A DNA stretch of 50,011 nt, from IMG/VR virus record IMGVR_UViG_3300020205_001469, positions 1 to 50,011 of that record; one strand, 5' to 3'. The stretch comes from a virus. The notes below the pieces were generated by a model that saw only the letters and a list, made by a program, of their open reading frames with translations, had not been told where the DNA came from and ran no database searches. A program made the translations under genes and the position numbers. Below, piece by piece: positions 15,652-50,011 of this stretch (its first letter is position 1; each line of letters begins with the position of its first letter).

Positions 15652-15951
15652 TTATAATGCTGGTTCTATGTCTGCCAACAACGGATGTTGCTTTTGCTCT
15701 GCATGAAGTCTAATTTGTAGTCCACGAGTTTCTGCAATATCTTTTGGATATATACCTGCGGCCGCTTTGCCCTTTTCATGAACATCTTTTGCTACTTGAA
15801 AAGCCTTTTCTTCAGATAAATTACATACCCCACACAATACACTTACAACAAAGTCAAATGGAGTAAAGTCATCATTGTGTAACATCACCGCATATAGCGG
15901 TGGTGGTACCACTTTTTGAGTATCCTTGACTGGTTCTTTAAGCTCTGACAT
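15652..15951 (-). CDS. clpS: ClpS, N-degron adaptor for ClpA
   Basis: The 99-aa product has the full ClpS core: YAVMLHNDDFTPFDFVV (residues 20-36, with the HNDD pocket at 25-28), DVHEKGKAAAGIYPKDIAET (57 on, with the pocket His at 58) and QHPLLADIE at the end. ClpS hands proteins with N-terminal Leu, Phe, Tyr or Trp to ClpAP. All N-degron-binding residues I know are present, so it should be functional. I start at ATG 15951 (AAGG ribosome site); an in-frame TTG at 15993 is less likely. It heads an operon with the tRNA and two more genes. A ClpA-type gene lies at 48178-50011. Confidence 0.93.
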   Translation of the reverse strand: MSELKEPVKDTQKVVPPPLYAVMLHNDDFTPFDFVVSVLCGVCNLSEEKAFQVAKDVHEKGKAAAGIYPKDIAETRGLQIRLHAEQKQHPLLADIEPAL

Positions 15952-15984
15952 ATTCCGTACCTTATCAACAGTTGAGTATTCTGT

Positions 15985-16013
15985 ATTATACAACAGCTCT
16001 TGGTAAAAAGCAA
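15985..16013 (-). promoter_or_regulatory. Sigma70-type promoter TTGCTT-N17-TATAAT
   Basis: A perfect -10 (15985-15990) with a weaker -35 (16008-16013), giving a leader of about 30 nt with AAGG before the clpS ATG. The promoter at 19489-19517 has the same TTGCTT-N17-TATAAT layout. Confidence 0.65.
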
Positions 16014-16282: not shown

Positions 16283-17440
16283 CTACCGTTGTTCTCTGCC
16301 AACCCCTTTTGGACCACTAATTTTTCCTTTGCCTGCAAACTTTGCATTGGTAGGTGGTGCAATCTTAATACGTTTTCCTGGCAATGGTGTTGGCGTTGCC
16401 CTGCCCGCTGCCCCCGCTGGATATGAGTTAGCGTCAGCACCTGCTTCGGCATCTGCACCTGCTCCACCAGTTACAAATGTTATCTTAGGCATAGCTTCTT
16501 GTTCTGGGCCATATATATTAGGCATATCTACTCTGAGTATATCTGCAACTTTGTGTGCATCATCGAACGAGATAACTTGCTTGTTGCCAACATCCATTAA
16601 CATCATTGCATCAAATTTTGTAATTGTTTTGTAATTCTCAAAACTCAATAGACCCCATTCACGTTTAATTCCTGCTATATCACCGGATACAATTTGTTTC
16701 TCTAACGCAGATGAATTAGTGACAAATTTAAATGTTGAGTCAACTACTGCTTTGGCAATCTTTTTTATTGCCGTTGGTTCTAATGTTGGGCGGATTGTGG
16801 TTACCCACGGCTTGACAGATAATCTATCACCAACGGTAACCCCGTTTATTTCCAATTCTCTTTTAATTGACTGCATATCGTATTGAGCTTTTCTGCCAGC
16901 CGTCCATCGACCACCAGCTACTTGTTTGGCTTTTAACTCTATATTTTGGCCGTTAATTTGAATGTCACCAGGAGTACTGTCACTACCAGAAAATTTAATA
17001 TTAGGACTTAGCAGAGCTAGAGCCAGTTCTCCCGGGCCCACTCCCATCGGAGCAAGTGGTATTAGGTTTAAAAATACTCTCATCGCAAACCCAGTGTCGG
17101 TTAAAATCTCATCAAACGATACTGCGACACCCTGTTTAAGTATAGCAGGAATGTTGATAAACCCTTTGTGATAATTGTCTAAAAATACTTGTTTTTCTTT
17201 CAACGTACCATCAGTGTTGTTTATAGTCTGTGCTAATTGCCGCATGAATTTCTTAGCATCTTCATCACTAGATAACACTGAGGTCAATTTAGTATCCAAG
17301 TTATTTTTTTCTAAAACCTGCAGGATTCTATCCAATAATGCTGGATCTGATTCCGCCTTGACTTTGGAGATTATCTCCTTTTTTACGTCAGCAGGTGCTT
17401 GTGTTTCCGCTTCATATATCAAATCTATTAACTCGCGCAT
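16283..17440 (-). CDS. Probable head-packaged protein with PD-(D/E)xK-like nuclease motif
   Basis: The 385-aa product starts at ATG 17440 (AAGG site and late promoter upstream); a longer frame to 17497 has neither. The first ten residues MRELIDLIYE, followed by A, fit the T4 capsid-targeting pattern that ends in (I/L)xE. Around residues 137-180, GELALAL ... PGDIQINGQNIELKAKQ ... GGRWTAGR looks like a PD-(D/E)xK nuclease core with D159, E168 and K170. The C-terminal 60 residues are low-complexity, rich in Ala, Gly and Pro, with basic patches. I infer a nuclease or nuclease-like protein carried in the capsid. Neither activity nor packaging is proven, and substrate is unknown. Confidence 0.65.
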   Translation of the reverse strand: MRELIDLIYEAETQAPADVKKEIISKVKAESDPALLDRILQVLEKNNLDTKLTSVLSSDEDAKKFMRQLAQTINNTDGTLKEKQVFLDNYHKGFINIPAILKQGVAVSFDEILTDTGFAMRVFLNLIPLAPMGVGPGELALALLSPNIKFSGSDSTPGDIQINGQNIELKAKQVAGGRWTAGRKAQYDMQSIKRELEINGVTVGDRLSVKPWVTTIRPTLEPTAIKKIAKAVVDSTFKFVTNSSALEKQIVSGDIAGIKREWGLLSFENYKTITKFDAMMLMDVGNKQVISFDDAHKVADILRVDMPNIYGPEQEAMPKITFVTGGAGADAEAGADANSYPAGAAGRATPTPLPGKRIKIAPPTNAKFAGKGKISGPKGVGREQR

Positions 17441-17462
17441 AGGATACCTTTTAATGATAGTG

Positions 17463-17470
17463 TATTTATT
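17463..17470 (-). promoter_or_regulatory. Late promoter motif AATAAATA
   Basis: Minus-strand AATAAATA (7 of 8 to T4 TATAAATA), 22 nt before the ATG at 17440. It supports that start codon and late expression of the nuclease-like gene. Confidence 0.55.
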
Positions 17471-17527
17471 ATGGAATTTGATTATCCAACTATTCATTAT
17501 AAGTTAATATTTTATGTTGCGACCGCA

Positions 17528-18697: not shown

Positions 18698-19465
18698 CTA
18701 TTTGCGTTCAATATCATCTTCAATACACTGCTCGCCATACTGAATTTCAATAATTTTCAGTGGATCTGTTGTGTTGTTTTTCAATTGATGCCACTCATTT
18801 GTTTCTATAGGTATAGTTTTAAATTTCTCATACACCCCCTTGGTTTCACAATCAGTAGTACGATTGTCAATAGTATTAACTGTGGCAGTCCCTTCAGATA
18901 CAAACCAAAATTCAGCACGATCTTTATGACGTTGCATTGATAGTGATTGCCCAGGGTCAACTGTTAGCTCTTTTAATTTAACTGCTTGACTGGGTTCATG
19001 TAATACACGATAGTATCCCCAGGGACGGATAGTTTTAGGTGCTTTCCATTCTTGTAAAATCCAACTACTGGAATTCATCTTGTTTTTACCACCCACACCA
19101 AATTTGAATTCTATATTGTCGTCTTGAAATGACATCTCAGGAATATTAGTTTTAGTACGATCACCGCCGTTGGCAAATATAATTTTATCCTGTGGATAAC
19201 TTTGTCGTGTCATCAGGATCGCCGCGTTTGCACTATTATCTGAATCGTCAAAATTAATAACAAAATCAACGCCTACTATATTACGCAATATACATGCTCG
19301 TTCACTTAACGGCATGAATGCTTGCCCTTTTTTCCGTTTAAGCCAACTGTCTGAATTGACTCCTACTACTAGTATATCACCCAATGCTTTAGCTGCCTTG
19401 AAATATTCAATATGTCCTGAGTGTATTGGATCGAATCCTCCAGTAACTAATACAATTTTTTTCAT
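18698..19465 (-). CDS. Nucleotidyltransferase-cupin fusion (RfaE/TagD-like plus mannose-6-phosphate-isomerase-like)
   Basis: Residues 1-135 are a cytidylyltransferase-type domain: VTGGFDPIHSGHIEYF with the HxGH motif (HSGH), GVNSDSWLKRKKG and LSERACILRNI, as in RfaE and TagD. Residues 142-255 are a cupin like the C-terminal isomerase part of ManC: RPWGYYRVL, DPGQSLSMQRHKDRAEFW, NEWHQLKN and IIEIQYGE. The C-terminal isoleucyl/acidic end is intact. The fusion suggests coupled isomerisation and activation of a sugar phosphate. It heads a three-gene operon (fusion, cupin, glycosyltransferase) with a TTGCTT-N17-TATAAT promoter. The ribosome site is GAGGATTTT. Confidence 0.85.
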   Translation of the reverse strand: MKKIVLVTGGFDPIHSGHIEYFKAAKALGDILVVGVNSDSWLKRKKGQAFMPLSERACILRNIVGVDFVINFDDSDNSANAAILMTRQSYPQDKIIFANGGDRTKTNIPEMSFQDDNIEFKFGVGGKNKMNSSSWILQEWKAPKTIRPWGYYRVLHEPSQAVKLKELTVDPGQSLSMQRHKDRAEFWFVSEGTATVNTIDNRTTDCETKGVYEKFKTIPIETNEWHQLKNNTTDPLKIIEIQYGEQCIEDDIERK

Positions 19466-27955: not shown

Positions 27956-28234
27956 TCAATGTTCGCCCTTGAGCAGGTTTACATACGCATTGTGTTGATA
28001 CTGACAAACTAATTCACACAATTTCTTATAGTTTTGCTCAGCCACTTCTTCATTAGTGGACATCAAACTAAGTTTAAGATCTTTAATAACAAGTTCAATC
28101 TCTTGTTCTATTATAAACAGATCAACACCAACCGCTACTTTGGTAGGGTTGCCATCATTAAGCATACGATGATCAATATTGCGCCACTGTCGCCATTCCA
28201 ATAGTGTATGTTCAATGTCTGCGTATGATATCAC
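27956..28234 (-). CDS. Small helical protein, 92 aa, unknown
   Basis: Starts with GTG in the GTGA overlap with uvsY. The sequence is mainly helical (IIEQEIELVIKDLKLSLMST, then EEVAEQNYKKLCELVCQYQH). No family recognised. It is followed one base later by the carbamoyltransferase gene. Tight coupling with uvsY suggests a shared transcript, not necessarily a shared function. Confidence 0.65.
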   Translation of the reverse strand: MISYADIEHTLLEWRQWRNIDHRMLNDGNPTKVAVGVDLFIIEQEIELVIKDLKLSLMSTNEEVAEQNYKKLCELVCQYQHNAYVNLLKGEH

Positions 28235-28683
28235 AGAGAGAAATCCTCCATACCAGCAGTTTTTAGTTTAACCAAATGACCCAACATAAAGTTTTTAGAT
28301 TCCAATGCCTTCATTACTCCCAACCAACGATTACGTAGTAATGCTACTTCGTTAATCAGTGTTTCATAGTCAATGACTTCATCTTCTCCATCAACATATT
28401 TTTCAGCATCTCTGGCAGTAAGGGCACGATTGTAATTCTCAAGATATTTTTGGAAATATCCTTTGCGTAGTTTACGTAGTTGAATGTTCATATAGTTTAA
28501 TACCGCTTCAATTTCTTGTAGTTGATTAAATCTACGTTCAGTAACACCAGGTAGATCTCTAATGTTACGTTCAACCACACCATTTATACTAATCTCACGT
28601 TTGGCTTCGTCTAGCTCAGCCATGTAAAAATTAATAAATTCTGGTAATTCACCAAGATCTTGGGTTACTTTGTTATACCACAT
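28231..28683 (-). CDS. uvsY: UvsY recombination mediator
   Basis: The 150-aa protein carries the UvsY signature of marine T4-like phages: YFQKYLENYNRALTARDAEK, YVDGEDEVIDYETLINEV, and RNRWLGVMKALESKNFMLG, ending in KLKTAGMEDFSL. T4 UvsY is 137 aa. UvsY loads UvsX onto gp32-covered single-stranded DNA; all three genes lie in this stretch. Its start overlaps the second radical SAM gene by 19 bases. In T4, uvsX and uvsY are also functionally coupled but not separated by radical SAM genes. Confidence 0.82.
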   Translation of the reverse strand: MWYNKVTQDLGELPEFINFYMAELDEAKREISINGVVERNIRDLPGVTERRFNQLQEIEAVLNYMNIQLRKLRKGYFQKYLENYNRALTARDAEKYVDGEDEVIDYETLINEVALLRNRWLGVMKALESKNFMLGHLVKLKTAGMEDFSL

Positions 28684-38085: not shown

Positions 38086-38598
38086 TCATCTGGCAAGGAG
38101 TTTTACCTTAAATTCTTTCTGATATGCCTTGGCATATTCAGGGTCTGTGGCAATTGCAGCCTCACCTGGCGGCCAGCGTTTACCAATTATATCTTCGGCA
38201 TACTGGTAGGCCCATTTAGGATCTTTGGCAATTGCGGCTTCGCCAGGTGGCCAGGGTTTTTTAATTACAAAGCGGGCATACAGGTAGGCCGATACAGGAT
38301 CATTGGCAATTGCAGCCTCACCTGGTGGCCAGGGTTTACCAATTACATCCTGGGCATACCGGTAGGCATAGTAAGGATCATTGGCAATTGCAGCCTCACC
38401 TGGTGGCCAGGGTTTACCAATTACATCCTGGGCATACAGGTAGGCATATTCAGTATCTTTCGCCCATAGATGTTCTAGTTCTTGTTTCTGTGCTTTAGTT
38501 TTAGCCATATCCCAAGCAATCGATGGTATTTTCGCAGAGGCATCAGCATACCCCATTAACTGCTGTGGTTGGGCATGGAATCGGTATAGATTAAGCAT
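38086..38598 (-). CDS. PWPPGE-repeat protein, 170 aa
   Basis: After a 45-residue lead (MLNLYRFHAQPQQLMGYADA) come four 26-residue repeats of the form PWPPGEAAIA-NDPxYAYxYAQDVIGK. Related repeats occur in several phage proteins and are likely short helical hairpins; function is not known to me. The start overlaps 38591-39325 by 8 bases. It lies inside the head-cargo block but lacks an obvious targeting sequence. Confidence 0.75.
   Translation of the reverse strand: MLNLYRFHAQPQQLMGYADASAKIPSIAWDMAKTKAQKQELEHLWAKDTEYAYLYAQDVIGKPWPPGEAAIANDPYYAYRYAQDVIGKPWPPGEAAIANDPVSAYLYARFVIKKPWPPGEAAIAKDPKWAYQYAEDIIGKRWPPGEAAIATDPEYAKAYQKEFKVKLLAR
38149..38460 (-). repeat. 78-bp tandem coding repeat
   Basis: Copies of ggcaattgcagcctcacctgg start at 38149, 38227 (with changes), 38305 and 38383, a constant 78-bp spacing (26 codons). 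The two rightmost units are nearly identical, suggesting recent duplication. Confidence 0.88.
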
Positions 38599-39325
38599 CT
38601 AGGTATTTCCCGTAATATTTTTTAATTAAGAAATTCAAAAACTGTGTATATTCTGGAATCTTACTTAATGCCGCAATATCCTGTTTACCAATTTCCAGAT
38701 CGCGTTCGTTCATAAACGATTTGTCTTCCATATGAAGCTGGAATTTGCGAGCCTTACCGCCCAAATTAGCCATGATAATATACAAGTCACCTTTGGATGC
38801 ATAGTTTTGAAATTGATTATTCTCTTTACCCGCAGTACACCATTTTGTACCAGCACCATACAGACACGATGCTTCTTCTGTTCTAGGGACGATGACTTTG
38901 AAGTTGGGAGTATCAATGATTCGATCTGCGTTGGCTTTAACATCACGAGTTTGCTGTTTAGCACTTGGCGCGGCTGGTTGTTGTTCCTCGGTATCGATTA
39001 TATCATATAGCTGATTTAAATCTTTAATCTGGTTTAAATCTTTAATCTGCAACGTATTTCGTATCTTAATAAACTTAGCAATAGAATCGCGCAAGCGAGC
39101 CAAATCATCGAGTTTGAATTGCTGACGCACATACATGTTGGCGATGAATTGTAGATTCTTACCTTGTGGGTCTGGATCTGCTTGCTTTAACTGATCAACA
39201 ATGGCAACCGAATCCATTGGTTGACCCAGATCCTGTTGAGCCGCCGCTTCGATCTTGGACTTCATCTGTGTTGCGATGAACTCCGCTCGATCTTCAAGTA
39301 AATATATAAATTCTTTTGCTCTCAT
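38591..39325 (-). CDS. Probable head-cargo protein with GTKWCT motif, 244 aa
   Basis: Begins MRAKEFIYLLEDRAEFIATQ. The first eleven residues end in LLE and share EFI with T4 internal-protein signals, so this is a candidate capsid-targeting sequence. The C-terminal half has ASCLYGAGTKWCTAGKENNQ and YASKGDLYIIMANLGGK, a Cys/Trp-rich motif that I have seen in uncharacterised phage proteins; I do not know its activity. A Pro/Ala/Gln linker at about residues 115-125 separates the halves. Ribosome site AAGGAAG. Confidence 0.65.
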   Translation of the reverse strand: MRAKEFIYLLEDRAEFIATQMKSKIEAAAQQDLGQPMDSVAIVDQLKQADPDPQGKNLQFIANMYVRQQFKLDDLARLRDSIAKFIKIRNTLQIKDLNQIKDLNQLYDIIDTEEQQPAAPSAKQQTRDVKANADRIIDTPNFKVIVPRTEEASCLYGAGTKWCTAGKENNQFQNYASKGDLYIIMANLGGKARKFQLHMEDKSFMNERDLEIGKQDIAALSKIPEYTQFLNFLIKKYYGKYLDA

Positions 39326-39337
39326 ACCAAAACTTCC

Positions 39338-40780
39338 TTATTTAATTTGTTTAGCTTTGGCTAATAAAGCAATTAACTGTGGTCCCAATGTTGGATCTTG
39401 GAGTAACTTGGCAATGTCATCTAGTGTTGGTAAAAATGCTTGTGCTGTTGCTGGAGTAGATATTCCGTTACTAGCCGCAGTCAATGCTTTGCCCAACGCA
39501 GCCGGATTAGCGCCAACGACAGAAGCCAATTTGCCACTTTGGGTTTTCTGAATTTGTGCCTTTTTAACTTCGATTGGGTCTGGCACCGCACCTGGTACTG
39601 GAGCACCAGGGACTCCTGGAGCCGCTTCACCAATGTTGGGATCAATCCCTCTGGAACCTCTTCCACCTTTTTTACGTATAGCGGCAAGTTCATCTAATCC
39701 ATGTTTAATTTGTTCAACATTCATTGCTAGTTCACCAAATTGGCGAGCAATACTTTCCCAACCAATGGCACTACCATTTTCAGCTCGTTTTGCTAACTCT
39801 TTAAATTGTGCGGCGGCTCTGGCCATACGGTATTGTAGTTTAGCAGGATTGGCACCTTGATGATTGTGGATCATGGGGTTCATCGGTTCTGCTGGATCCA
39901 TTTCAATCGGCGCTTCTGTCACACCTTGAGATCTATTAGTACCTATAGTAACCGCTGGCGCTCTCATTCGCATTTTATCGTTCGATGCTTGCACCACACT
40001 ATCAAAAGTTAAATTAAATACTCTATTGCCATCTTTATCTATTGTTTCATCTCCCAAAACATATCTGCCATTGGCAATAAGATTTGCAGTCATTGCCGCT
40101 TTGGAACTTAACGGAACACCTGGAAGTAGAGTAGTACCTTCACCACCTTTATAAGTTCTAATAGTACTAGGTTTAAACCCCTCGTCTCGCATTATTTCAG
40201 GATATTCCATTATCTCAGCACCCGCCAACACTAACTGTGGGCCTGGGTTAATTTTGGCATAGAAAGTATCTGTGCTTAGTTCTAATATATCCTTTGCAAA
40301 CTCAACATTAAAATCCAATGTAGCGTATCCGCTAACTTTAGTAGCTACATCAATTTCTTTATCAATTTCTAATTTTAAATTATTAACTGCTTCTTCTGGA
40401 TTCTGACCTTTGGCTTTAAATGTTGCTTGCAATGTTCTTGGATTTTCAGCAACCGCAATAAAATATAAATTTTTAAACTTCTGTTTGCTTACATAAACAT
40501 CATATCTTTTGTGTGAACTTAAATTTTTATATTGATTATTAGCTTTATAACCTGACAATTCATTTAATAAGCCCTTTACCACATCAGGCTCCTGGAAGTT
40601 TTCAAACTCTTTTAGATAATCCTGTCCGGATGGTGCAGAGGTTACACTCTCACCACCAACCATTTTACTACGTGACGCTTTAGCTGAGTCTTTTCCAGCC
40701 CAATATCCCGGAAACTTCTTTGGTGCTTTTCTGGGTTTAACTGCGGCAACTTCTGACAGGTGTTTTCTAAATGATTTCAT
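39338..40780 (-). CDS. Probable head-cargo protein with CTS-like start and QGVTE site, 480 aa
   Basis: The N-terminus MKSFRKHLSE-V matches the T4 capsid-targeting pattern in length (10 residues) and end (LxE). A mixed alpha/beta domain occupies residues 60-280 (KRYDVYVSKQKFKNLYFIAV, FKAKGQNPEEAVNNLK), then SQGVTEAPIEMDP at 284-296 holds a QGVTE site, followed by helical segments and a Pro-rich linker (PGVPGAPVPGAVPDP) and a final helix ending KAKQIK. No enzyme family recognised. It directly follows the 40782-42938 polyprotein-like gene. Confidence 0.65.
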   Translation of the reverse strand: MKSFRKHLSEVAAVKPRKAPKKFPGYWAGKDSAKASRSKMVGGESVTSAPSGQDYLKEFENFQEPDVVKGLLNELSGYKANNQYKNLSSHKRYDVYVSKQKFKNLYFIAVAENPRTLQATFKAKGQNPEEAVNNLKLEIDKEIDVATKVSGYATLDFNVEFAKDILELSTDTFYAKINPGPQLVLAGAEIMEYPEIMRDEGFKPSTIRTYKGGEGTTLLPGVPLSSKAAMTANLIANGRYVLGDETIDKDGNRVFNLTFDSVVQASNDKMRMRAPAVTIGTNRSQGVTEAPIEMDPAEPMNPMIHNHQGANPAKLQYRMARAAAQFKELAKRAENGSAIGWESIARQFGELAMNVEQIKHGLDELAAIRKKGGRGSRGIDPNIGEAAPGVPGAPVPGAVPDPIEVKKAQIQKTQSGKLASVVGANPAALGKALTAASNGISTPATAQAFLPTLDDIAKLLQDPTLGPQLIALLAKAKQIK

Positions 40781-40781
40781 T

Positions 40782-42938
40782 TTATTTTCTTCTACGTGTT
40801 ATAGTACCCGGACCGCCATTGGCAAATCCGTTGCCAGCACCCATACTTGTTGCTACACTACCTGTACCCATGCCACCAGCATCTTCTTTAGCTACATTTT
40901 TAGCAAATTGTGCCATATGGCGTAGATGTGGATCTGCGCTATGTATAGCTTGGGCTATTCTGGATTTGGGAATTGTTTCATCTTGTGGTACATGTAATGC
41001 CTTGTGTAGATTGCCTTTGGTCTTGGGATTCACTGCCTTTTGTATCCATTTTTCACCTTCTGTTACACCTTGCTCTTCGGATTCCATATAGTCCCAAACA
41101 TTAACTAGCATAGATTTAGCCACAGCAATCTTTTCTTGACACCATTCAGGCAAATTATCACCAGTGTCAATCAAGTCATCTAATCCGTCCACGGCACGGC
41201 GCAGTGTGCTAAGATTGTTGTCTGCCATTCCTGCTTCGTCATCATATTCGGGATTGTATTCCTCCGCCACACCTTTCTTATTCAATGCATCAATCGCGGT
41301 TTTTTTATGTTCAGGCGATGCGTCGCTCATTGCGATATCTCTAACTATCTTGGCAGTGCCAACCATGTTATCCGTGGGTTCAAATTTGCCCAAACCTTTT
41401 TCATATTCTTTACGCTTGGTTGCAACTTGTTTGGCATGAGCCGAGCGTGGTTCTTTACTACCACCTGCCCAGCCATAAGTTGTACGAAATTTCTTTACTT
41501 CTTGTACTTTTTTCTTACGATAGGTATCGTGAAATGCTTCTGACGAACTAACAGTAAATCCCGCATGTGATGCTACATATTTTTTAGCACCTTCACGTGT
41601 TTTGAATTTTCTTGCCTCTGTACCGTTTTTATGTGCTATCCAAGCACCAAGTGGATCAGCTTTGGTTTCCGCCACATCCTGCTCATTACCGTACTGCCTT
41701 AATAGCATCTTACCACTAGCAACTTCAAATCTACCCTTAACGGCAGGACCTAATCGCTTAGTAGCCCGTCGTTCTATTTTAGATAAATTTAATTCAGCAT
41801 CGTTTTCATCAGTATATTCACCATACAATACCACCGCATTATCCCAAGCCCAAACATAGTATTTGTTAGGATCAATAGTGTATGCACTACCATGAATAGT
41901 CTCAATGCGGGCTTCCGCCACACCTTGTAACTTTTTTAATTCTAACTCAAGTTCTTGAACTCGAAGTTGTCGTTCTTGTTCTTTAGCAATAGCAATAAGA
42001 TTCTTAAGACTACGGATACGATCTGCTTTTACTGTATCTTTGGTCATTGGACTTGCATTATCAAATCCGCCTTCCGCCACACCTTGCTCTTTAACATAGT
42101 TAGCACGAACATTCCCTGACTGATAGTTCTTTAGATTTTTGGCTGCTACTTTTTCTTTCGATTCTTGATCTTTTTTGTATGTTTCTCTTTCAGCTTTTTG
42201 TCTTGCCAATTCTTTTGCTGATGTTCTAAGATCGTCAAAGCCTTCCGCCACACCTTGCGTAATACGATGATTTCTGCCGCCAAAAATTTTGCGGATAGTA
42301 TCAATTGCCTCTTGCTCGCTATTAGCGCGAACTGAGTATGTCTTTGTGTATAATGGGACATCTTTGTTGGAACCATGATGCTCAGCTGTGACGTGGAACA
42401 TCTGTTCTACTTCTTCCGCCATACCCGGCTGACCTTTGATTGCTTGTAACAATGCACGAGCAACTACACGATCCTTTTCCTGTTCATCATCAGGTAACTG
42501 TGCATACTCAATGTTCATCAACTTGGCTCGTTGTTGTAGTTTTGCTTCTAATTTGCCAGCGGCTTTTAGTTTTTCTGTATCGTCAAATTGATCAGGATTT
42601 TGTACAAATGCTCGAGCAGTGACATTCCAACCTTTGTGTATGGCGTCGCTAATTTGTTCTATATCTGTAACACCTTTATCAATCATTTGTTTAGCAAACG
42701 CGGCAGATTTTAGGTTAGCTTGCCATCCAAATGTATTTCCGGGTGTACTACGACCATAATGATATGCATTATCCAATGCTTCGTCACTGATTGTGGCCAA
42801 CTCTGGGACTGACATTTGTTTAACTGGCTTTGCCATCTCATCTGGGCTAACAGGATTGTTTCTTAAAAAATCTCTAGTTGGATTTCTAGTTTTAGATGCT
42901 TCTGCTAGTTCTGAGTTATGAAAATCGGTAAACTTCAT
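40782..42938 (-). CDS. Polyprotein-like head-cargo protein with repeated VAE/VTE sites, 718 aa
   Basis: N-terminus MKFTDFHNSELAE-A could be a capsid-targeting sequence cut at residue 13. Later sites: GMAE 172-175, QGVAE 228-232, QGVAE 285-289, QGVAE 338-342, QDVAE 420-424, GVAE 556-559, QGVTE 623-627. They separate unlike segments, including a charged coil (ELARQKAERETYKKDQES), an aromatic beta segment (KYYVWAWDNAVVLYGEYTD), a DNLPEWCQEKIAVAKSMLVN helix and a basic end. The sites resemble prohead-protease sites (LxE or IxE in T4). Each module is 50-140 residues. I infer a head polyprotein. Confidence 0.72.
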   Translation of the reverse strand: MKFTDFHNSELAEASKTRNPTRDFLRNNPVSPDEMAKPVKQMSVPELATISDEALDNAYHYGRSTPGNTFGWQANLKSAAFAKQMIDKGVTDIEQISDAIHKGWNVTARAFVQNPDQFDDTEKLKAAGKLEAKLQQRAKLMNIEYAQLPDDEQEKDRVVARALLQAIKGQPGMAEEVEQMFHVTAEHHGSNKDVPLYTKTYSVRANSEQEAIDTIRKIFGGRNHRITQGVAEGFDDLRTSAKELARQKAERETYKKDQESKEKVAAKNLKNYQSGNVRANYVKEQGVAEGGFDNASPMTKDTVKADRIRSLKNLIAIAKEQERQLRVQELELELKKLQGVAEARIETIHGSAYTIDPNKYYVWAWDNAVVLYGEYTDENDAELNLSKIERRATKRLGPAVKGRFEVASGKMLLRQYGNEQDVAETKADPLGAWIAHKNGTEARKFKTREGAKKYVASHAGFTVSSSEAFHDTYRKKKVQEVKKFRTTYGWAGGSKEPRSAHAKQVATKRKEYEKGLGKFEPTDNMVGTAKIVRDIAMSDASPEHKKTAIDALNKKGVAEEYNPEYDDEAGMADNNLSTLRRAVDGLDDLIDTGDNLPEWCQEKIAVAKSMLVNVWDYMESEEQGVTEGEKWIQKAVNPKTKGNLHKALHVPQDETIPKSRIAQAIHSADPHLRHMAQFAKNVAKEDAGGMGTGSVATSMGAGNGFANGGPGTITRRRK

Positions 42939-42955
42939 TGGAGTATCCTTTATCT

Positions 42956-43228
42956 TTATTTAGTGAAATTACCGATGGAATCTAGTGTAATCGGTATTTG
43001 GTTCAATGTTGCATCACGCAACTGAAACATCTCTTGTCTGTCTGCACTGATCCAAACTTTATGTTTTCCTGCTGGTAAATTTAACAACAAGTTCTCAGTA
43101 ATATATGTTTTAGTATGATCCCAGATAAAAGTTCGTTCTGCGATTAAGTCAGAATTGACATACAAACGATATATTGGTGTTAATGCAGAATCGGCACAAT
43201 GTACATTAACTGTTAACTTGTCTTCCAT
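42956..43228 (-). CDS. Small beta-rich protein, 90 aa, unknown
   Basis: It reads MEDKLTVNVHCADSALTPIY with strand-like IAERTFIWDHTKTYITENLL and AGKHKVWISADRQEMF. The pattern suggests a single beta-sandwich. No family recognised. It starts in a TAATATG junction after the ligase-like gene and could be a small head decoration or accessory protein. Confidence 0.65.
   Translation of the reverse strand: MEDKLTVNVHCADSALTPIYRLYVNSDLIAERTFIWDHTKTYITENLLLNLPAGKHKVWISADRQEMFQLRDATLNQIPITLDSIGNFTK
42957..42964 (-). promoter_or_regulatory. Late-promoter-like motif ACTAAATA
   Basis: Ends 18 nt before the ATG at 42938, with AAAGGA between; overlaps the end of the preceding gene. 6 of 8 to the T4 consensus. 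Confidence 0.4.
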
Positions 43229-43229
43229 A

Positions 43230-45086
43230 TTATTTTTTAGCTACAGGTTTGACTGGTTTGACTGGTAATGCTGGTGCTGCCGGCTCATCAGCAATACCCA
43301 TGCCATCACGTGTGGCTTGATATAATGTTTTGCCACCCACTTTGATATTTGGTCCTACTCCTGTGGCTTTCTGAAATCCAGCCTCATCTCCAGCAGTGGC
43401 TAATTTACGTGCTAGTGATCCACTGATACCAGCTAACCCACCTGCATCAGGATCACGGTCACCACTACTAACGAATGTTAGATGAACGTGTTCTCGTCCA
43501 GTAGGACCACGAGCATTGTCTGTGGTGCGAACTGATCCACTATTCCATCCAGTTAATAACTTTTCAATACTGCCAGCACTATTACCCAAACGGTCACTGC
43601 CACCAATAAAAGCTATGTTACGGAAGCCTTTATCATACAACCAATTTGCGGCATAGATAGGACCTTGCACTGGATCAGACACGATACGGGCCGCATACTT
43701 GGGATATATTGCTTTGATAAAGGCTGCTTTGGTTGCTGGATCTAATGGATCATCTGGTGCTTTGTTACTGTTACTTAAGAATATATAACTGTTCTTTCCA
43801 CCTGTTGCTACTGTTTTGGCCATAACTAAATTATGACCTAGTGTGGGTGGATTCATACGTCCAAAACAAAATGCAGCCAATGGCATCTTCTGCTTGGCTG
43901 CTACCTCGTCGTCAGACACACGATGTTTAGCAAAGTTTGCTTTACTAAATCCCAGTCGGTCAATTAGTTTTAGTTTATCTCGACCAGCACCAAATACATA
44001 TCCTTCATGTGCAGTTGCACCATCTGTTGTGGCAATAATTTCACTATTTTGTTGTTGTGAGTCTATCTGTTGTTTAATATGTAGTTTTAAATCTGTTACC
44101 GCGGCCCACATACTCCACAATCCCAATAATCCTGGAGCACCACCATCTTCTTGATATAACCAACCATCATTGTTTGCACCCAAAAACTTTGCTGTTACTA
44201 CTTTATTATCAGCGAATCGTTCACGTAGGAAATTTAAAAATCGTGGTACAATATCCGCACTTACATCATTCTCTTCCAACATACGTGTAATAAACGGGCT
44301 CATTGCTGTTATAATGCTCTTGCCCTTCATAGCAGTTACATCTGCCATAAATTTAGTTACTGCTTTTTTATGCTGTCTAATTACTGTTTCAGCTTCACCC
44401 AACACTCGTTTATCAACAGCAACTTTGGGCTTCTCGGTCATTTCTCCAACTAGGAAAGTGATACCAGCTTTTTCTTTAAGCCCCCGTAATCCCACCAGCG
44501 GAACATCGCCCTGACCTAACCCGTTGATAAAGGTATGTACTGCTATACCACCAGCACTCTTGGTAATTTTGTCACCAAGTGGACTATCAATTTTAACTTT
44601 GTATTCTACGGTATTGGGTTTAAAGACATAGAATCCATCTTTGGTAGCGGGAGTATATGCCCACATTAAGTCACCCATCCAATACTGATCCTTGACCATG
44701 GGTACTATTTTTTCTAGCAGTGGGCGCATGATACCTTCTTTGTCCCATAGATCATTGCGATTAGATCCACGTTGCTCGTCATAGGCAGCAATGCTCATAA
44801 ACTCCATCTTGCCCTTGGAGACTTTGTCGTACATATGTTTGTCTACAAATACTATTTGTCCTGCGGCATCGCGACCAAACACCACTGCTGGAAATCCATC
44901 CCATTTAACGGTTACTGTATCGGTATTTTTACCCAGACCTTTTAACTCGGCAACTGCACGTTCAGCACCAGCGGCACCATCGTCAATAATCAAATCTTCA
45001 ACGTGAGTAATACCTTCAGTTAGTACCTTGGGGGCGGCATGTAGTGGGAATTTATCCGACTGGTTAAAAATCTCAAATAATCTCAT
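43230..45086 (-). CDS. ATP-dependent ligase-like / NMNAT-like nucleotidyltransferase fusion, 618 aa
   Basis: Residues 60-380 carry covalent nucleotidyltransferase motifs: KWDG (motif I, K61), WMGDLMWAY (motif III-like, 136-144), AHEGYVFG (IV, 359-366) and KLKLID (V, 371-376), as in DNA or RNA ligases. Residues 400-570 form an NMNAT/cytidylyltransferase domain: FGRMNPPTLGHN (408-419; TxGH variant of HxGH), FIGGSDRLG and ISGSLAR (554-560). A Pro/Lys tail follows. The N-terminal 24 residues end in LTE-G, a possible capsid-targeting cleavage site. ATGA overlap with 45083-45997. RNA repair or NAD-linked roles are guesses. Confidence 0.75.
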   Translation of the reverse strand: MRLFEIFNQSDKFPLHAAPKVLTEGITHVEDLIIDDGAAGAERAVAELKGLGKNTDTVTVKWDGFPAVVFGRDAAGQIVFVDKHMYDKVSKGKMEFMSIAAYDEQRGSNRNDLWDKEGIMRPLLEKIVPMVKDQYWMGDLMWAYTPATKDGFYVFKPNTVEYKVKIDSPLGDKITKSAGGIAVHTFINGLGQGDVPLVGLRGLKEKAGITFLVGEMTEKPKVAVDKRVLGEAETVIRQHKKAVTKFMADVTAMKGKSIITAMSPFITRMLEENDVSADIVPRFLNFLRERFADNKVVTAKFLGANNDGWLYQEDGGAPGLLGLWSMWAAVTDLKLHIKQQIDSQQQNSEIIATTDGATAHEGYVFGAGRDKLKLIDRLGFSKANFAKHRVSDDEVAAKQKMPLAAFCFGRMNPPTLGHNLVMAKTVATGGKNSYIFLSNSNKAPDDPLDPATKAAFIKAIYPKYAARIVSDPVQGPIYAANWLYDKGFRNIAFIGGSDRLGNSAGSIEKLLTGWNSGSVRTTDNARGPTGREHVHLTFVSSGDRDPDAGGLAGISGSLARKLATAGDEAGFQKATGVGPNIKVGGKTLYQATRDGMGIADEPAAPALPVKPVKPVAKK

Positions 45087-45997
45087 TTTACTTTGTCCAA
45101 TATACTTCTAAACCAGTCTGATGTTCCTTCTTGAACTGGGACTGGATAAAACTGTTTTACTGCATCCCATTTTTTAGGATATTTTTGCAAGGCATTTTTG
45201 ATACCGGTTAAACTAGATATATCACGAGCTTTGGCTTCTGGCCCAATTAATATTTTTGCTATTTGATCTTTATCAATAGCCACAACCTTTCCAGTTGTTC
45301 TATCTACTAGTCCATTGTCAGGACTAAATTGTAAACTACCCTTGACCTCACCAGTTTTGGGATCAGTAAATTGTCGTGGACTACTTACTTTGGTCAGTGC
45401 CGCATATAGGTCGTTCCACAAATCTCCACCACGCATATTTTGATCCAAACTAAAATCGTGTGTATGTAGCATCCAAGCTGACCGTGGCCGTACGATTAAA
45501 TCTACCGAGTAGTGTTTGCCACCAGCAGTATATTCCAATGTCAATGTGCCAGGATCCGTAGGTAAGCCATTTTGCGTCATAAAAGCAGCCAATGCTGCCT
45601 TGCTGGCTTTCATTTGTAACCCAGCTTTTTTGGCTGGATCTGCCATGGCGTTGTCTATTGCTTTGGGGCCTAGTGGTTTGGCTGATGCGGCATTCCACTG
45701 TGCTATATCTGCTGGGAATTTTTTAACTAACTCTTGCGGATCAATCATAATATCCACGTCGCCAGAATCTTGTCTTAGTGTTCCAGAATACGGATGTTCT
45801 GGATCAAAACTGCCTGCACCCCCTGATGTCCAACCAGCACTAATGCCGGCTTTTTTAAGGATGGGATTTATCTTGGCTTTTGCTGTAAGAAAAGCATCTT
45901 TTGTAATACGTGATACATCCACGCCTGCGGCGGCTAATCTCTTGCCGGCTTCTGCTATATTTGTTGCAATTTTTGTGTGTTTAGCAATAGAATTCAC
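45083..45997 (-). CDS. Nucleotidyltransferase-fold-like protein, 304 aa, candidate head cargo
   Basis: The GSFDPEHPYSGTLRQ segment followed by DSGDVDIMIDPQELV (D-x-D at 77-79) resembles the metal-binding core of DNA polymerase beta-type nucleotidyltransferases, although the canonical GS motif is shifted. Then LTLEYTAGGKHYSVDLIVRP supplies the third strand with an Asp. The start is GTG at 45997 with GGGGA upstream; the N-terminus MNSIAKHTKIATNIAE-A could be a targeting sequence ending IAE. It overlaps the ligase-like gene by 4 bases, suggesting a functional pair. Function unproven. Confidence 0.65.
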   Translation of the reverse strand: MNSIAKHTKIATNIAEAGKRLAAAGVDVSRITKDAFLTAKAKINPILKKAGISAGWTSGGAGSFDPEHPYSGTLRQDSGDVDIMIDPQELVKKFPADIAQWNAASAKPLGPKAIDNAMADPAKKAGLQMKASKAALAAFMTQNGLPTDPGTLTLEYTAGGKHYSVDLIVRPRSAWMLHTHDFSLDQNMRGGDLWNDLYAALTKVSSPRQFTDPKTGEVKGSLQFSPDNGLVDRTTGKVVAIDKDQIAKILIGPEAKARDISSLTGIKNALQKYPKKWDAVKQFYPVPVQEGTSDWFRSILDKVK

Positions 45998-47393: not shown

Positions 47394-48188
47394 TTACTCC
47401 TCGGTGTATTTACTTGCATAAACTACCTGTTGAATTTTTCCTATCTTACCTGGCCAAGTCAAATGCAACCAACTGACTTCTGCTTCTTCTCTTAGGTAAA
47501 ATCTAATACCATTAAAGTAGTAAGTATCAGTAACAATGTTTGATAACGATTGCCATGCCAGCCTGGTAGATTTGACTCGATCTGCAAAGGTACCGTTAAG
47601 TTTTTCTGCAAGCCCAACTGATAGTTTAGCATCTACATTCTTAAGATATGTTAATAACCGTTTGGTATCTGCTATTTGATATCTGCCTTCTCGTATAGTA
47701 ACCAAAAACCGATAAGGGGTTTCTCGCTTGAGTATAATTAAGTCTTTGGCTAAAATCCGTAAACTTTGCTCGCTATCAGGCACATATATAGTGGCAATCT
47801 TTCGCCGCACTAATGGTGATACTGATTTTGTAAATTGTTCTGCATCTTGTTCCGTAACAAAATAGCAATCTAAATTGTCGCGCTCTACCCGCATTTTGAC
47901 TGGTGGTGATTGTGCTGTTAGGTAGGTGGTCAAGTCAGTTAATAATTGTTCATTCTCCCAAGTGAGCGGAGGATGCGTATTGTTATAGGCACCGCGCCAA
48001 TGCCGCCTCTTTTTAGCTTCAGCAAGTACAATATCGCTAGATTGTCCTTTGCGACACCCATTCACTATGTCCTGTACTTCTGGCGATTTGATAGTAATCT
48101 TGTAGTAATACTGGCCATAAAACTTTTTACTAACTGGAACAATAGTTGCTGTTGGATTAACTGTACTCCATATATTGTTATTGAGCAT
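47394..48188 (-). CDS. Conserved phage protein of unknown function, 264 aa
   Basis: Mixed fold: YGQYYYKITIKSPEVQDIVN, KMRVERDNLDCYFVTEQDAE, RFLVTIREGRYQIADTKRLL and a C-terminal WLHLTWPGKIGKIQQVVY. I start at ATG 48188 (AAAGGTGCTTG upstream, inside clpA), giving an 11-bp overlap with the ClpA-type gene. No motifs of a known enzyme. It ends 5 bases before the 55-aa gene, so the right-end genes appear to be one operon. Confidence 0.68.
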   Translation of the reverse strand: MLNNNIWSTVNPTATIVPVSKKFYGQYYYKITIKSPEVQDIVNGCRKGQSSDIVLAEAKKRRHWRGAYNNTHPPLTWENEQLLTDLTTYLTAQSPPVKMRVERDNLDCYFVTEQDAEQFTKSVSPLVRRKIATIYVPDSEQSLRILAKDLIILKRETPYRFLVTIREGRYQIADTKRLLTYLKNVDAKLSVGLAEKLNGTFADRVKSTRLAWQSLSNIVTDTYYFNGIRFYLREEAEVSWLHLTWPGKIGKIQQVVYASKYTEE

Positions 48189-50011
48189 CAAGCACCTTTA
48201 CTTTACTGGACTCTATTTCAAATGCAAACTTAGAGTCAATATAATCAATAGTGATTATACTATTGGGTTTAACTACCTCAAATAACAACTTTCTGCTTAG
48301 TGGTGTCTTAATTTCGTTGTCAATGACCCTGGCCAACGGCCTTGCGCCCATCTTTTTATCGTATCCCTTTGTTATCAATGCATCGATACAACTCTCACTG
48401 CAACGAACTTTAAGTTGCTTGCTACTAAGTAGTTCATTTAACTCTTGCATAAACTTGTTAACTACTTTCTTAATACTGAGAGTATCCAATGACTTAAATT
48501 TAACAATTGCATCCAATCTATTTCTAAATTCAGGTTTAAAGAAATCCTTAACTTCTTTATCATCAGCATCTGTACGATCTAATACTGTTGTAAATCCCAT
48601 ATTGCTACGTTCGTTGGCCTCGGCACCCAGGTTACTGGTCATAATAACAATAGTGTTACGGCAGTCAGCTTTCTTTCCGTTACTACCAGTAGCCACGCCA
48701 TCATCCATTACCTGCAACAATACGTTATAAACATCTGGATGCGCTTTTTCAATTTCATCAAACAATATAATTGAGTGAGGATGTTTTTCCACTTCACTAA
48801 TAAGCAAGCCACCAGCCATACTACCATCTTCATAGCCCACGTAGCCAGGTGGAGCACCAATTAGTTTAGCAACACTGTGCCGTTCCTGGTATTCACTCAT
48901 GTCAAATCGCAACAACTTCATGCTTAACTGTTGACTTAACAATTTAGCAAGTTCTGTTTTACCAACACCAGTTGGGCCTGTGAATAAGAAATTACCAATG
49001 GGCTTATTAAGCGATTTAAGGCCAGCTTTGGCCACAAATATTTTTGCCAATACCGTATCAACAGCATGGTCTTGCCCATATAACTTCTCTTTAATAGTAT
49101 CCTCTAGCGTTACAGATACTTGATCACGTTCTCCCATTAATTGCTGTAATGGTATTTTAGTTTGCTTGCTTACTATGTCTAAAATATGTGATTTAGTAAT
49201 TAGAAATTTGCCTGCTTTAATCTTGGCCTTGGCGCATGCCATATCAATTAAGTCAATAGCCTTGTCAGGTAGTTTCCTATCACGAATATATCTGTCGCTG
49301 TACTCAACTGCAATATCAATAGCAGTTTCTGATATCTTGCCGCCATGAAATTCTTCGTAACTGGATTTTAGTCCACGTAAAATTTTCTTGGTAGTATCTA
49401 CTGTGGGCTCATCAATACTCAACCTATAGAATCGACGCATTAACGCACGATCTTTTTCAAAACTCTGAGTATATTCTTCCCATGTGGTAGATGCAACTAC
49501 TTTGATTTTACCTTTAGCCAGGGATGGTTTTAACATGTTAGCCAAGTCCACACTACTTTGACTGCCTGCACCGGCGCCTTTCATTTGATGTGCTTCATCG
49601 ATAAACAAGATACAGTTCTTTTTAGCTTCCATTGCGGTAAGTATGTCTTTGAGTTTTTCTTCAAACTCACCGCGATACTTACTACCAGCCAACAAACTAC
49701 CAACATCTAAATTGTATACTATAAAGTCTTTTAAGTAATCCGGCACAAATCCCTTGAGTATGTTGTATGCCAATCCTTCCACAATAGCCGTTTTGCCTAC
49801 TCCTGGATCACCAACCAACAATACATTACTCTTATTCTTACGTGCTAGTACTTGAATAATTTCGGTTAGTTCATCATCACGACTAATAACTGGATCAATC
49901 TTTCCTTCTTCACATAACTTGTTGACATTGGTGCAGTATTCATCCAAGATACTATCTGCTCGTGAATCCGACACATCCTTGGTGGCTTTGCCGTAGTTTT
50001 TATTAAAGAAC
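48178..50011 (-). CDS. clpA: ClpA-type AAA+ unfoldase, N-terminus outside window
   Basis: The visible 610 residues contain two AAA+ modules: GDPGVGKT with ILFIDEAH (first) and GPTGVGKT with IILFDEIEKAHPDVYNVLLQ (second), plus GSLLAGSKYRGEFEEKLK and RPLARVIDNEIKTPLSRKLL. In E. coli ClpA an IGL loop contacts ClpP; here the corresponding segment has MGF (SNMGFTTV), close to the [LIV]G[FL] rule, so ClpP binding is plausible. The frame stays open to the right edge (no stop before 50011), so the N-domain that binds ClpS is not visible. With ClpS at 15652-15951 it could redirect host ClpP. No ClpP gene is seen. Confidence 0.92.
   Translation of the reverse strand, partial: FFNKNYGKATKDVSDSRADSILDEYCTNVNKLCEEGKIDPVISRDDELTEIIQVLARKNKSNVLLVGDPGVGKTAIVEGLAYNILKGFVPDYLKDFIVYNLDVGSLLAGSKYRGEFEEKLKDILTAMEAKKNCILFIDEAHQMKGAGAGSQSSVDLANMLKPSLAKGKIKVVASTTWEEYTQSFEKDRALMRRFYRLSIDEPTVDTTKKILRGLKSSYEEFHGGKISETAIDIAVEYSDRYIRDRKLPDKAIDLIDMACAKAKIKAGKFLITKSHILDIVSKQTKIPLQQLMGERDQVSVTLEDTIKEKLYGQDHAVDTVLAKIFVAKAGLKSLNKPIGNFLFTGPTGVGKTELAKLLSQQLSMKLLRFDMSEYQERHSVAKLIGAPPGYVGYEDGSMAGGLLISEVEKHPHSIILFDEIEKAHPDVYNVLLQVMDDGVATGSNGKKADCRNTIVIMTSNLGAEANERSNMGFTTVLDRTDADDKEVKDFFKPEFRNRLDAIVKFKSLDTLSIKKVVNKFMQELNELLSSKQLKVRCSESCIDALITKGYDKKMGARPLARVIDNEIKTPLSRKLLFEVVKPNSIITIDYIDSKFAFEIESSKVKVLDAQ

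Follow-up and report, generated by a model that had tools for sequence, protein, structure and literature searches.

A predicted capsid-packaged nuclease in large T4-like phages

Whether some phages carry a DNA-cutting enzyme in their own heads is the question raised by one gene of the IMG/VR virus record IMGVR_UViG_3300020205_001469, a 50-kb fragment of a large T4-like phage. The window analysed here is the whole stretch of 50,011 nucleotides from position 1 of that record, and the gene lies at positions 16283 to 17440 on the minus strand. It encodes 385 amino acids and a stop codon, and its product was described as a putative capsid-targeting sequence (CTS) in front of a PD-(D/E)xK-like protein, on the basis of the open reading frame (ORF), its relatives and the ratio of nonsynonymous to synonymous substitution rates (Ka/Ks). 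From sequence comparison and structural modelling, the gene is predicted to encode a late, naturally occurring capsid-packaged nuclease, with a probability of about 0.6. Such a late, head-tagged nuclease would most simply be an injected DNA-cutting effector.

The predicted active site comprises four residues, whose codons all lie on the minus strand. E138 (17027 to 17029), at the start of helix 138-144, was found in 73/73 ungapped rows of the alignment; D159 (16964 to 16966), at the start of strand 160-162, was found in 72/72; and in the E168-x-K170 motif (16931 to 16939), within strand 165-172, both E168 and K170 were found in 72/72. The gapped rows belong to locus L024, which has a frame break separating D159 from E168, and to L093, which is cut by a contig end (relatives are cited by locus number). 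The 47-row domain alignment and 74 unique core sequences showed the pattern G-x-G-E138, G-D159 and E168-x-K170 with a prominent R178 (70/71 rows), and E138, D159, E168 and K170 stayed invariant in ungapped rows down to about 20% identity. The two largest scan patterns spanned residues ~133-142 and ~156-164, so that E138 and D159 were partly selected for; E168 and K170 lay outside these patterns and were covered by one pattern of an earlier scan. The initial annotation had numbered D159, E168 and K170 correctly, and E138 adds a fourth, acidic position to them. The sequence holds a conserved D...(D/E)xK plus a helix glutamate, the usual arrangement of the PD-(D/E)xK superfamily. At L024:6575-7764 the nuclease gene is split into two frames by the break mentioned above, and an intact near-identical copy is present in L021; the break is either a pseudogene or a sequencing error.

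The fold was predicted for the full-length protein and for the nuclease-like domain, residues 88-326 (16463 to 17179, minus strand). The full-length model built from 9 sequences was of moderate quality (predicted local distance difference test, pLDDT, 73.1; predicted template modelling score, pTM, 0.65), and the domain model mcd131c9b036d built from 47 sequences was strong (pLDDT 94.9, pTM 0.90). DSSP assigned to the domain model the order helix (E138)-strand-strand (D159)-strand (E168, K170)-helices-strands. D159 stands immediately before strand 160-162 and a turn occupies residues 163-164; since this turn belongs to an antiparallel hairpin, the strand order alone would set D159 opposite E168 and K170 on the same face. 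The DSSP order likewise suggests an alpha-beta-beta-beta-alpha-beta core in which beta2 carries the D and beta3 the ExK. A PD-(D/E)xK fold had been proposed for the protein from its sequence, and the prediction supports it by placing D159, E168 and K170 on adjoining strands of a tight hairpin, as judged from strand order.

Structural comparison with VIA aligned 996 chains with the domain model, 28 of them with Z of at least 2. Among the 24 PDB entries listed at this level, 12 were titled restriction or homing endonucleases, and these held 9 of the top 10 places. The best alignments were with MspI (1sa3, Z 4.2, 140 aligned, 4.7 A) and HinP1I (1ynm, Z 4.0, 147 aligned, 5.1 A); further rows were 3ndh (Z 3.6), NaeI (1ev7, Z 3.4), I-Ssp6803I (2ost, Z 3.1), HincII (3e41, Z 3.1) and PvuII (1f0o and 1ni0, both Z 2.7). 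For the full-length model, the nuclease rows 1ynm, 1sa3 and 3ndh were aligned over about residues 87-327. Most of the endonuclease matches are presumably PD-(D/E)xK enzymes, and Eco15I and NhoI (8q5o, 8rpx) we take to be probably of another class. Any single Z value is weak, and what is argued from is the concentration of one enzyme class among weak matches, together with the invariant residues. The invariant residues, the domain model and the structural alignments jointly point to a PD-(D/E)xK-type nuclease core, as the initial annotation had suggested.

Successive scans of IMG/VR raised the number of relatives from 1 to 6, then 17 and finally 98, on contigs of up to 354 kb; 80 of the 98 were retained. 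Ka/Ks was 0.04-0.18 in 7/7 relative pairs, and the gene is under purifying selection. The protein and its relatives gave no real match by tblastn against 50,697 phage records, and the 89-residue core gave two chance matches with E of about 10 (32.9% and 27.0% identity). Pfam and PHROGs returned nothing significant for the protein (best PHROG 0.0045, of unknown function), the PDB sequence search gave no match (best E 1.1 and 0.61), and none of 274 pattern matches in GTDB genome contigs was confirmed as a relative. The BFVD search gave three significant matches, relatives that are all uncharacterised proteins of uncultured Caudovirales phages. This virus family is represented neither in Pfam, PHROGs, NCBIfam, PADLOC or the PDB, as searched by sequence, nor in the 50,697 phage records.

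An alternative in-frame ATG at 17497 would lengthen the ORF, but the likely promoter lies downstream of it. The gene start was placed at the ATG at 17440, which has a ribosome-binding site, AAAAGG (17447 to 17452, minus strand), six bases upstream and is the point where the proteins of relatives begin. Residues 1-10, MRELIDLIYE (17411 to 17440, minus strand), had been likened to a capsid-targeting sequence, and the comparison with T4 bears this out: MRELIDLIYE-A shares, position for position, the ten-residue register of T4 ipII/ipIII, MKTYQEFIAE-A; its positions 4 and 7 are hydrophobic, and positions 8, 10 and 11 hold I, E and A. According to the cited passages on T4, the gp21 protease cleaves after L/I-X-E (PMC9026906), the internal proteins have propeptides of 10-19 residues, and IPIII depends on residues 4 and 7 for targeting and on residues 8 and 10 for processing (PMC9026906 section 2.6). 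The present start would similarly be a propeptide within 10-19 residues ending in L/I-x-E, with predicted cleavage before A11.

The exact IPIII register was found in 9/54 unique family N-termini against 12/1264 other ORFs of the same loci, several of these 12 looking like CTS proteins themselves; a relaxed form was found in 51/54 against 251/1264. The N-terminal regular expressions were written after the sequences had been viewed. Loci L024, L098, L025, L026, L072, L073 and L093 were dropped before the promoter and CTS counts, L072 being restored by hand in the CTS-start count. The start was moved by hand to a downstream ATG in eleven loci (L030, L031, L039, L043, L044, L046, L055, L064, L065, L070 and L090), by which the CTS reading is favoured in the counts. 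The promoter background still included three or more members of the family, with GPCE in place of GPGE (L063, L067, L071); these were removed from the CTS background.

CTS-like starts are kept in remote relatives (L011/L012, L022, L023 and L094), namely MRAYEFLTEK in L023, MRLTKLFEAP in L094, MKCLDFDTFLIED in L022 and MKFTDF...FLLEQAE in L012. At L025:2499-9914 the nuclease core lies inside an ORF of 2472 amino acids that starts MKISDLFEYN and holds a Cu/Zn superoxide dismutase domain at residues 2106-2237 (Pfam, E 1e-43); this ORF is a probable giant cargo protein. PF03420, the T4 gp21-type prohead protease family, was found in 7/12 records searched. In L104 (record G005, 107,520 bases) the PF03420 match crosses one in-frame TAA.

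The late promoter claimed in front of the gene was likewise supported as a sequence motif. The T4-type late-promoter-like motif AATAAATA at 17463 to 17470 (minus strand) differs by one mismatch from TATAAATA, which we take to be the T4 late-promoter consensus. ATAAATA within 45 nt upstream was enriched in the family, with 42/53 unique upstream regions against 67/618 other ORFs, and the motif would point to late expression, as for a T4-type internal protein. In 31/42 family cases with the motif, ATAAATA ends only 4-8 nt before the ATG, which would put the transcript start on or next to the start codon; the motif of the window lies 22 nt from the ATG, leaving a leader. The short spacing suggests that late mRNAs of this phage clade have almost no leader. 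Near-ATG ATAAATA is seen upstream of the nuclease in L008, L010, L032, L042, L051 and others, and also on virion genes in L042, L050, L074 and L080.

The position of the gene, next to early genes and away from other cargo, had been called odd. This did not hold: in relatives the gene either follows uvsX-uvsY as it does here or belongs to a different late or cargo block, and since other CTS-bearing proteins stand after uvsX-uvsY in related phages, the location is conserved and no anomaly. The order in many relatives is TerL, virion protein, gp32, UvsX, UvsY, a methyltransferase-like or nucleotidyltransferase gene, and the nuclease; in L023 the nuclease immediately precedes TerL, and in L022 it lies amid a run of CTS-like ORFs. 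The methyltransferase-like ORF is upstream of the nuclease in 31/65 loci. In the window, the upstream neighbour is a nucleotidyltransferase/cupin-like gene (18698 to 19465, minus strand), whose homologue is no more than 1.5 kb from the nuclease in 15/65 loci, and the UvsY-like gene, named from gene order, which marks the slot in relatives, lies at 28231 to 28683 (minus strand). TerL, the neighbouring virion protein and the gp32-type single-stranded DNA-binding protein of the window were identified by PHROGs, and ClpS by Pfam; the names UvsX, UvsY, UvsW and ClpA are our assumption from sequence and gene order.

In several related phages the slot downstream of UvsY is occupied by different proteins that start in a similar way; the candidates given here are those passing the promoter and start filter. 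A second slot family (L129:13709-15304, L137:4444-5982, L152:9105-10712, L113:10170-11690, L118:13507-14886 and L159:3662-5050) has invariant E203, D249, S263 and K265, that is S-x-K, in six sequences (L137 numbering). Three of its members scanned against Pfam gave no match, and L137 gave none in the phage collection. No homology to the nuclease family was detected by hhalign (probability 0.1, E 0.51). Single-case slot proteins were seen in L109, L111, L115 and L119. The CTS-starting slot protein L119:8284-9750, open at the contig end, has an S-I-K-A-G stretch; it matches phrog_3560 (E 9.9e-15), a group of unknown function, and, at 26.8% identity, hypothetical proteins of Synechococcus phages.

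The nuclease ends in a basic low-complexity tail, residues 327-385 (16286 to 16462, minus strand; computed isoelectric point 10.4), whose last residues are GVGREQR. Arg-rich C-terminal tags of the GVGREQR, GIGRERR, LGRARR and PRQRR types occur on many slot proteins, with 35/57 unique family C-termini and 4/7 of the second family against 73/998 background ORFs, counted with a regular expression written after the sequences had been viewed. Among the 40/73 background matches listed, most are homologues of gp32 that end in IRNRQK or a similar sequence. On otherwise unrelated slot proteins the tag, for example LGRERR or PRQRR, was seen in L010, L030, L035, L042, L047, L050, L066, L109, L111, L129, L137 and L152, and the copy of the window is at 16286-16306. 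The shared tag may be a second signal, for targeting or for processing. It is tentatively proposed that the place downstream of uvsX-uvsY serves large T4-like phages as an exchangeable cargo slot. In it, unrelated enzyme bodies (the present family, the second slot family and the single cases) would stand between a shared N-terminal CTS and often an Arg-rich C-terminal tail, and changing nucleases may thereby be delivered to the next host, as a natural counterpart of the engineered T4 CTS-nuclease.

Elsewhere in the window, a further block that had been regarded as cargo (38591 to 45997, minus strand) has ORFs starting MRAKEFIYLLED, MKSFRKHLSEV, MKFTDFHNSELAEA and MRLFEIFNQ and one GTG-start ORF. 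By the test applied, none of these has the exact IPIII register, and those at 38591 and 39338 pass the relaxed test. At 43230-45086, DUF6267 (E 2.5e-33) is fused to a cytidyltransferase-like part, with a CTS-like N-terminus. A ClpS-like gene lies near the nuclease in the window (15652-15993) and in some relatives; a ClpP-like gene is downstream in 8/65 loci, Clp-type genes were noticed downstream in L030, L041 and L047, and a ClpA-like gene is at 48178-49974 of the window, the ClpP and ClpA names being presumptive.

For the packaged nuclease we infer activity, packaging, cleavage after E10, injection and target as follows. The gene would be transcribed late, residues 1-10 would bring the protein into the prohead core, and a T4 gp21-type protease would remove them. 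The mature enzyme would remain among the packaged DNA, where the basic tail may assist, and would exit with the genome at infection. It would then cut DNA in the new cell through the PD-(D/E)xK site of E138, D159, E168 and K170; host or plasmid DNA, or the DNA of rival phages, are the candidate targets.

Several results weigh against this prediction. Foldseek found nothing in the PDB at E of 0.001 or below for the full-length or the domain model, the full-length search giving unrelated proteins only, and the VIA Z values do not exceed 4.2, a level that the tool's own note calls weak. Among 47 members, neither Pfam nor NCBIfam gave a significant model, and models named for PD-(D/E)xK enzymes stayed below threshold: DUF4420 in 2/47 (best E 0.015), MzaD in 3/47 (0.02), RE_BstXI in 1/47 (0.081) and, in PADLOC, a Cas4-like model in 1/47 (0.033), with unrelated weak names beside them. 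The gene is patchy, in 6/80 UvsX loci and in 1/27 loci with at least 5 kb downstream. PF03420 was not found in the window, a 50-kb fragment, and 4 other records of the 12 were also without a match. A packaged nuclease would moreover put the phage's own genome at risk, and searches for a protection system found none in 12 records, which are possibly fragments. No DNA-methyltransferase partner was conserved among them, and a restriction-modification pairing is unsupported (C5 methylase 0/12; N6/N4 methylase over the cut-off 1/12). The neighbouring methyltransferase-like ORF L008:1859-2614 has, by eye, no DPPY-type DNA-methylase motif. Protection by 7-deazaguanine, probed through QueC (2/12 over the cut-off), and by hydroxymethylcytosine, probed through thymidylate synthase-type enzymes (5/12 over the cut-off), gave no shared pathway; E values of about 1e-106 to 1e-109 point to ordinary thymidylate synthase. 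In 65 loci, no small immunity gene was found to be conserved in the 1.5 kb around the nuclease.

Other explanations were weighed on the same evidence. The nuclease may be packaged and yet act in the producing cell or head, in DNA trimming, prohead nucleic-acid clearing or resolution of recombination intermediates, and not in the next host. Its gene adjoins uvsX, uvsY and gp32, which are recombination genes, in many relatives, and the CTS would put the protein in the prohead while DNA is packaged; however, the late-promoter motif and the patchy occurrence among UvsX loci are unlike a required packaging factor, and unrelated bodies in the same slot are as expected of delivered accessory proteins. 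This explanation survives best of the alternatives and is still considered unlikely. A slightly smaller chance is given to a packaged protein whose nuclease fold does not cut, serving as a DNA-binding internal protein or as a decoy or inhibitor of host restriction, like T4 IPI. The four catalytic-type residues are invariant to about 20% identity, a constancy that binding alone does not need, although the tail is basic and T4 Ip1-3 inhibit type IV restriction enzymes, as stated in the cited passages of PMC12373910. Least probable is an unpackaged intracellular phage nuclease whose CTS-like start is a coincidence or a general N-terminal helix: the relaxed motif is weak alone, because 251/1264 other ORFs pass it and the T4 lysozyme start looks similar too, but the exact ten-residue register is rare (12/1264, several of them CTS-protein-like), the start is kept in remote relatives although the stretch that follows differs, and unrelated proteins of the same slot carry it.

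If the injected nuclease is real, some phages open infection by cutting DNA ahead of any phage gene expression, and how the nuclease shares the head with the phage's own genome becomes a testable question. Paired N- and C-terminal slot tags would give a simple rule for recognising injected effectors in uncultured phages. A search of open-licence papers found no natural CTS nuclease, injected or packaged; in the passages of that literature cited here, the T4-type capsid cargo consists of restriction inhibitors and an ADP-ribosyltransferase, with nucleases by engineering only.

The core order, the E...D...ExK residues and the weak structural alignments liken the protein to MspI, HinP1I, ThaI, NaeI, HincII and PvuII, which we take to be PD-(D/E)xK restriction endonucleases by fold class. 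It differs from MspI/HinP1I-type enzymes in having no sequence similarity to them, no conserved cognate methyltransferase and a phage cargo context. It also resembles the polyvalent proteins of phages and plasmids, enzymes delivered with the invading DNA (PMC5512222), to which the 2472-residue protein of L025 may be compared. In the cited part of that 2017 survey, injected ParB-like DNases are said possibly to degrade host or rival DNA and to be neither replaced nor joined by other DNase domains (PMC5512222). Unlike those DNases, the DNase-like domain here is of the predicted PD-(D/E)xK type, and the family, if active, would contradict the survey, as cited, on the absence of other DNase domains.

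The closest likeness in arrangement is with the T4 internal proteins IPI/Ip1, IPII/Ip2 and IPIII/Ip3 and with Alt, which have a short N-terminal CTS ending in L/I-x-E in a T4-like phage (PMC9026906, PMC12373910); as in T4 Ip1-3, unrelated bodies follow a common leader (PMC12373910). The T4 proteins, as described in these passages, are small restriction inhibitors or an ADP-ribosyltransferase, whereas a nuclease core is predicted here, and the Arg-rich C-terminal tail frequent in the present proteins is unmentioned for them in the passages cited. CTS fusions of staphylococcal nuclease and EcoRI have been packaged in T4 heads and delivered, and the packaged staphylococcal nuclease digested phage DNA once calcium was added, according to section 2.7 of PMC9026906; an intravirion nuclease therefore need not be active in storage. 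Like these engineered T4 fusions, the present protein would combine a CTS with a nuclease, but as a natural pairing that is kept in many phages.
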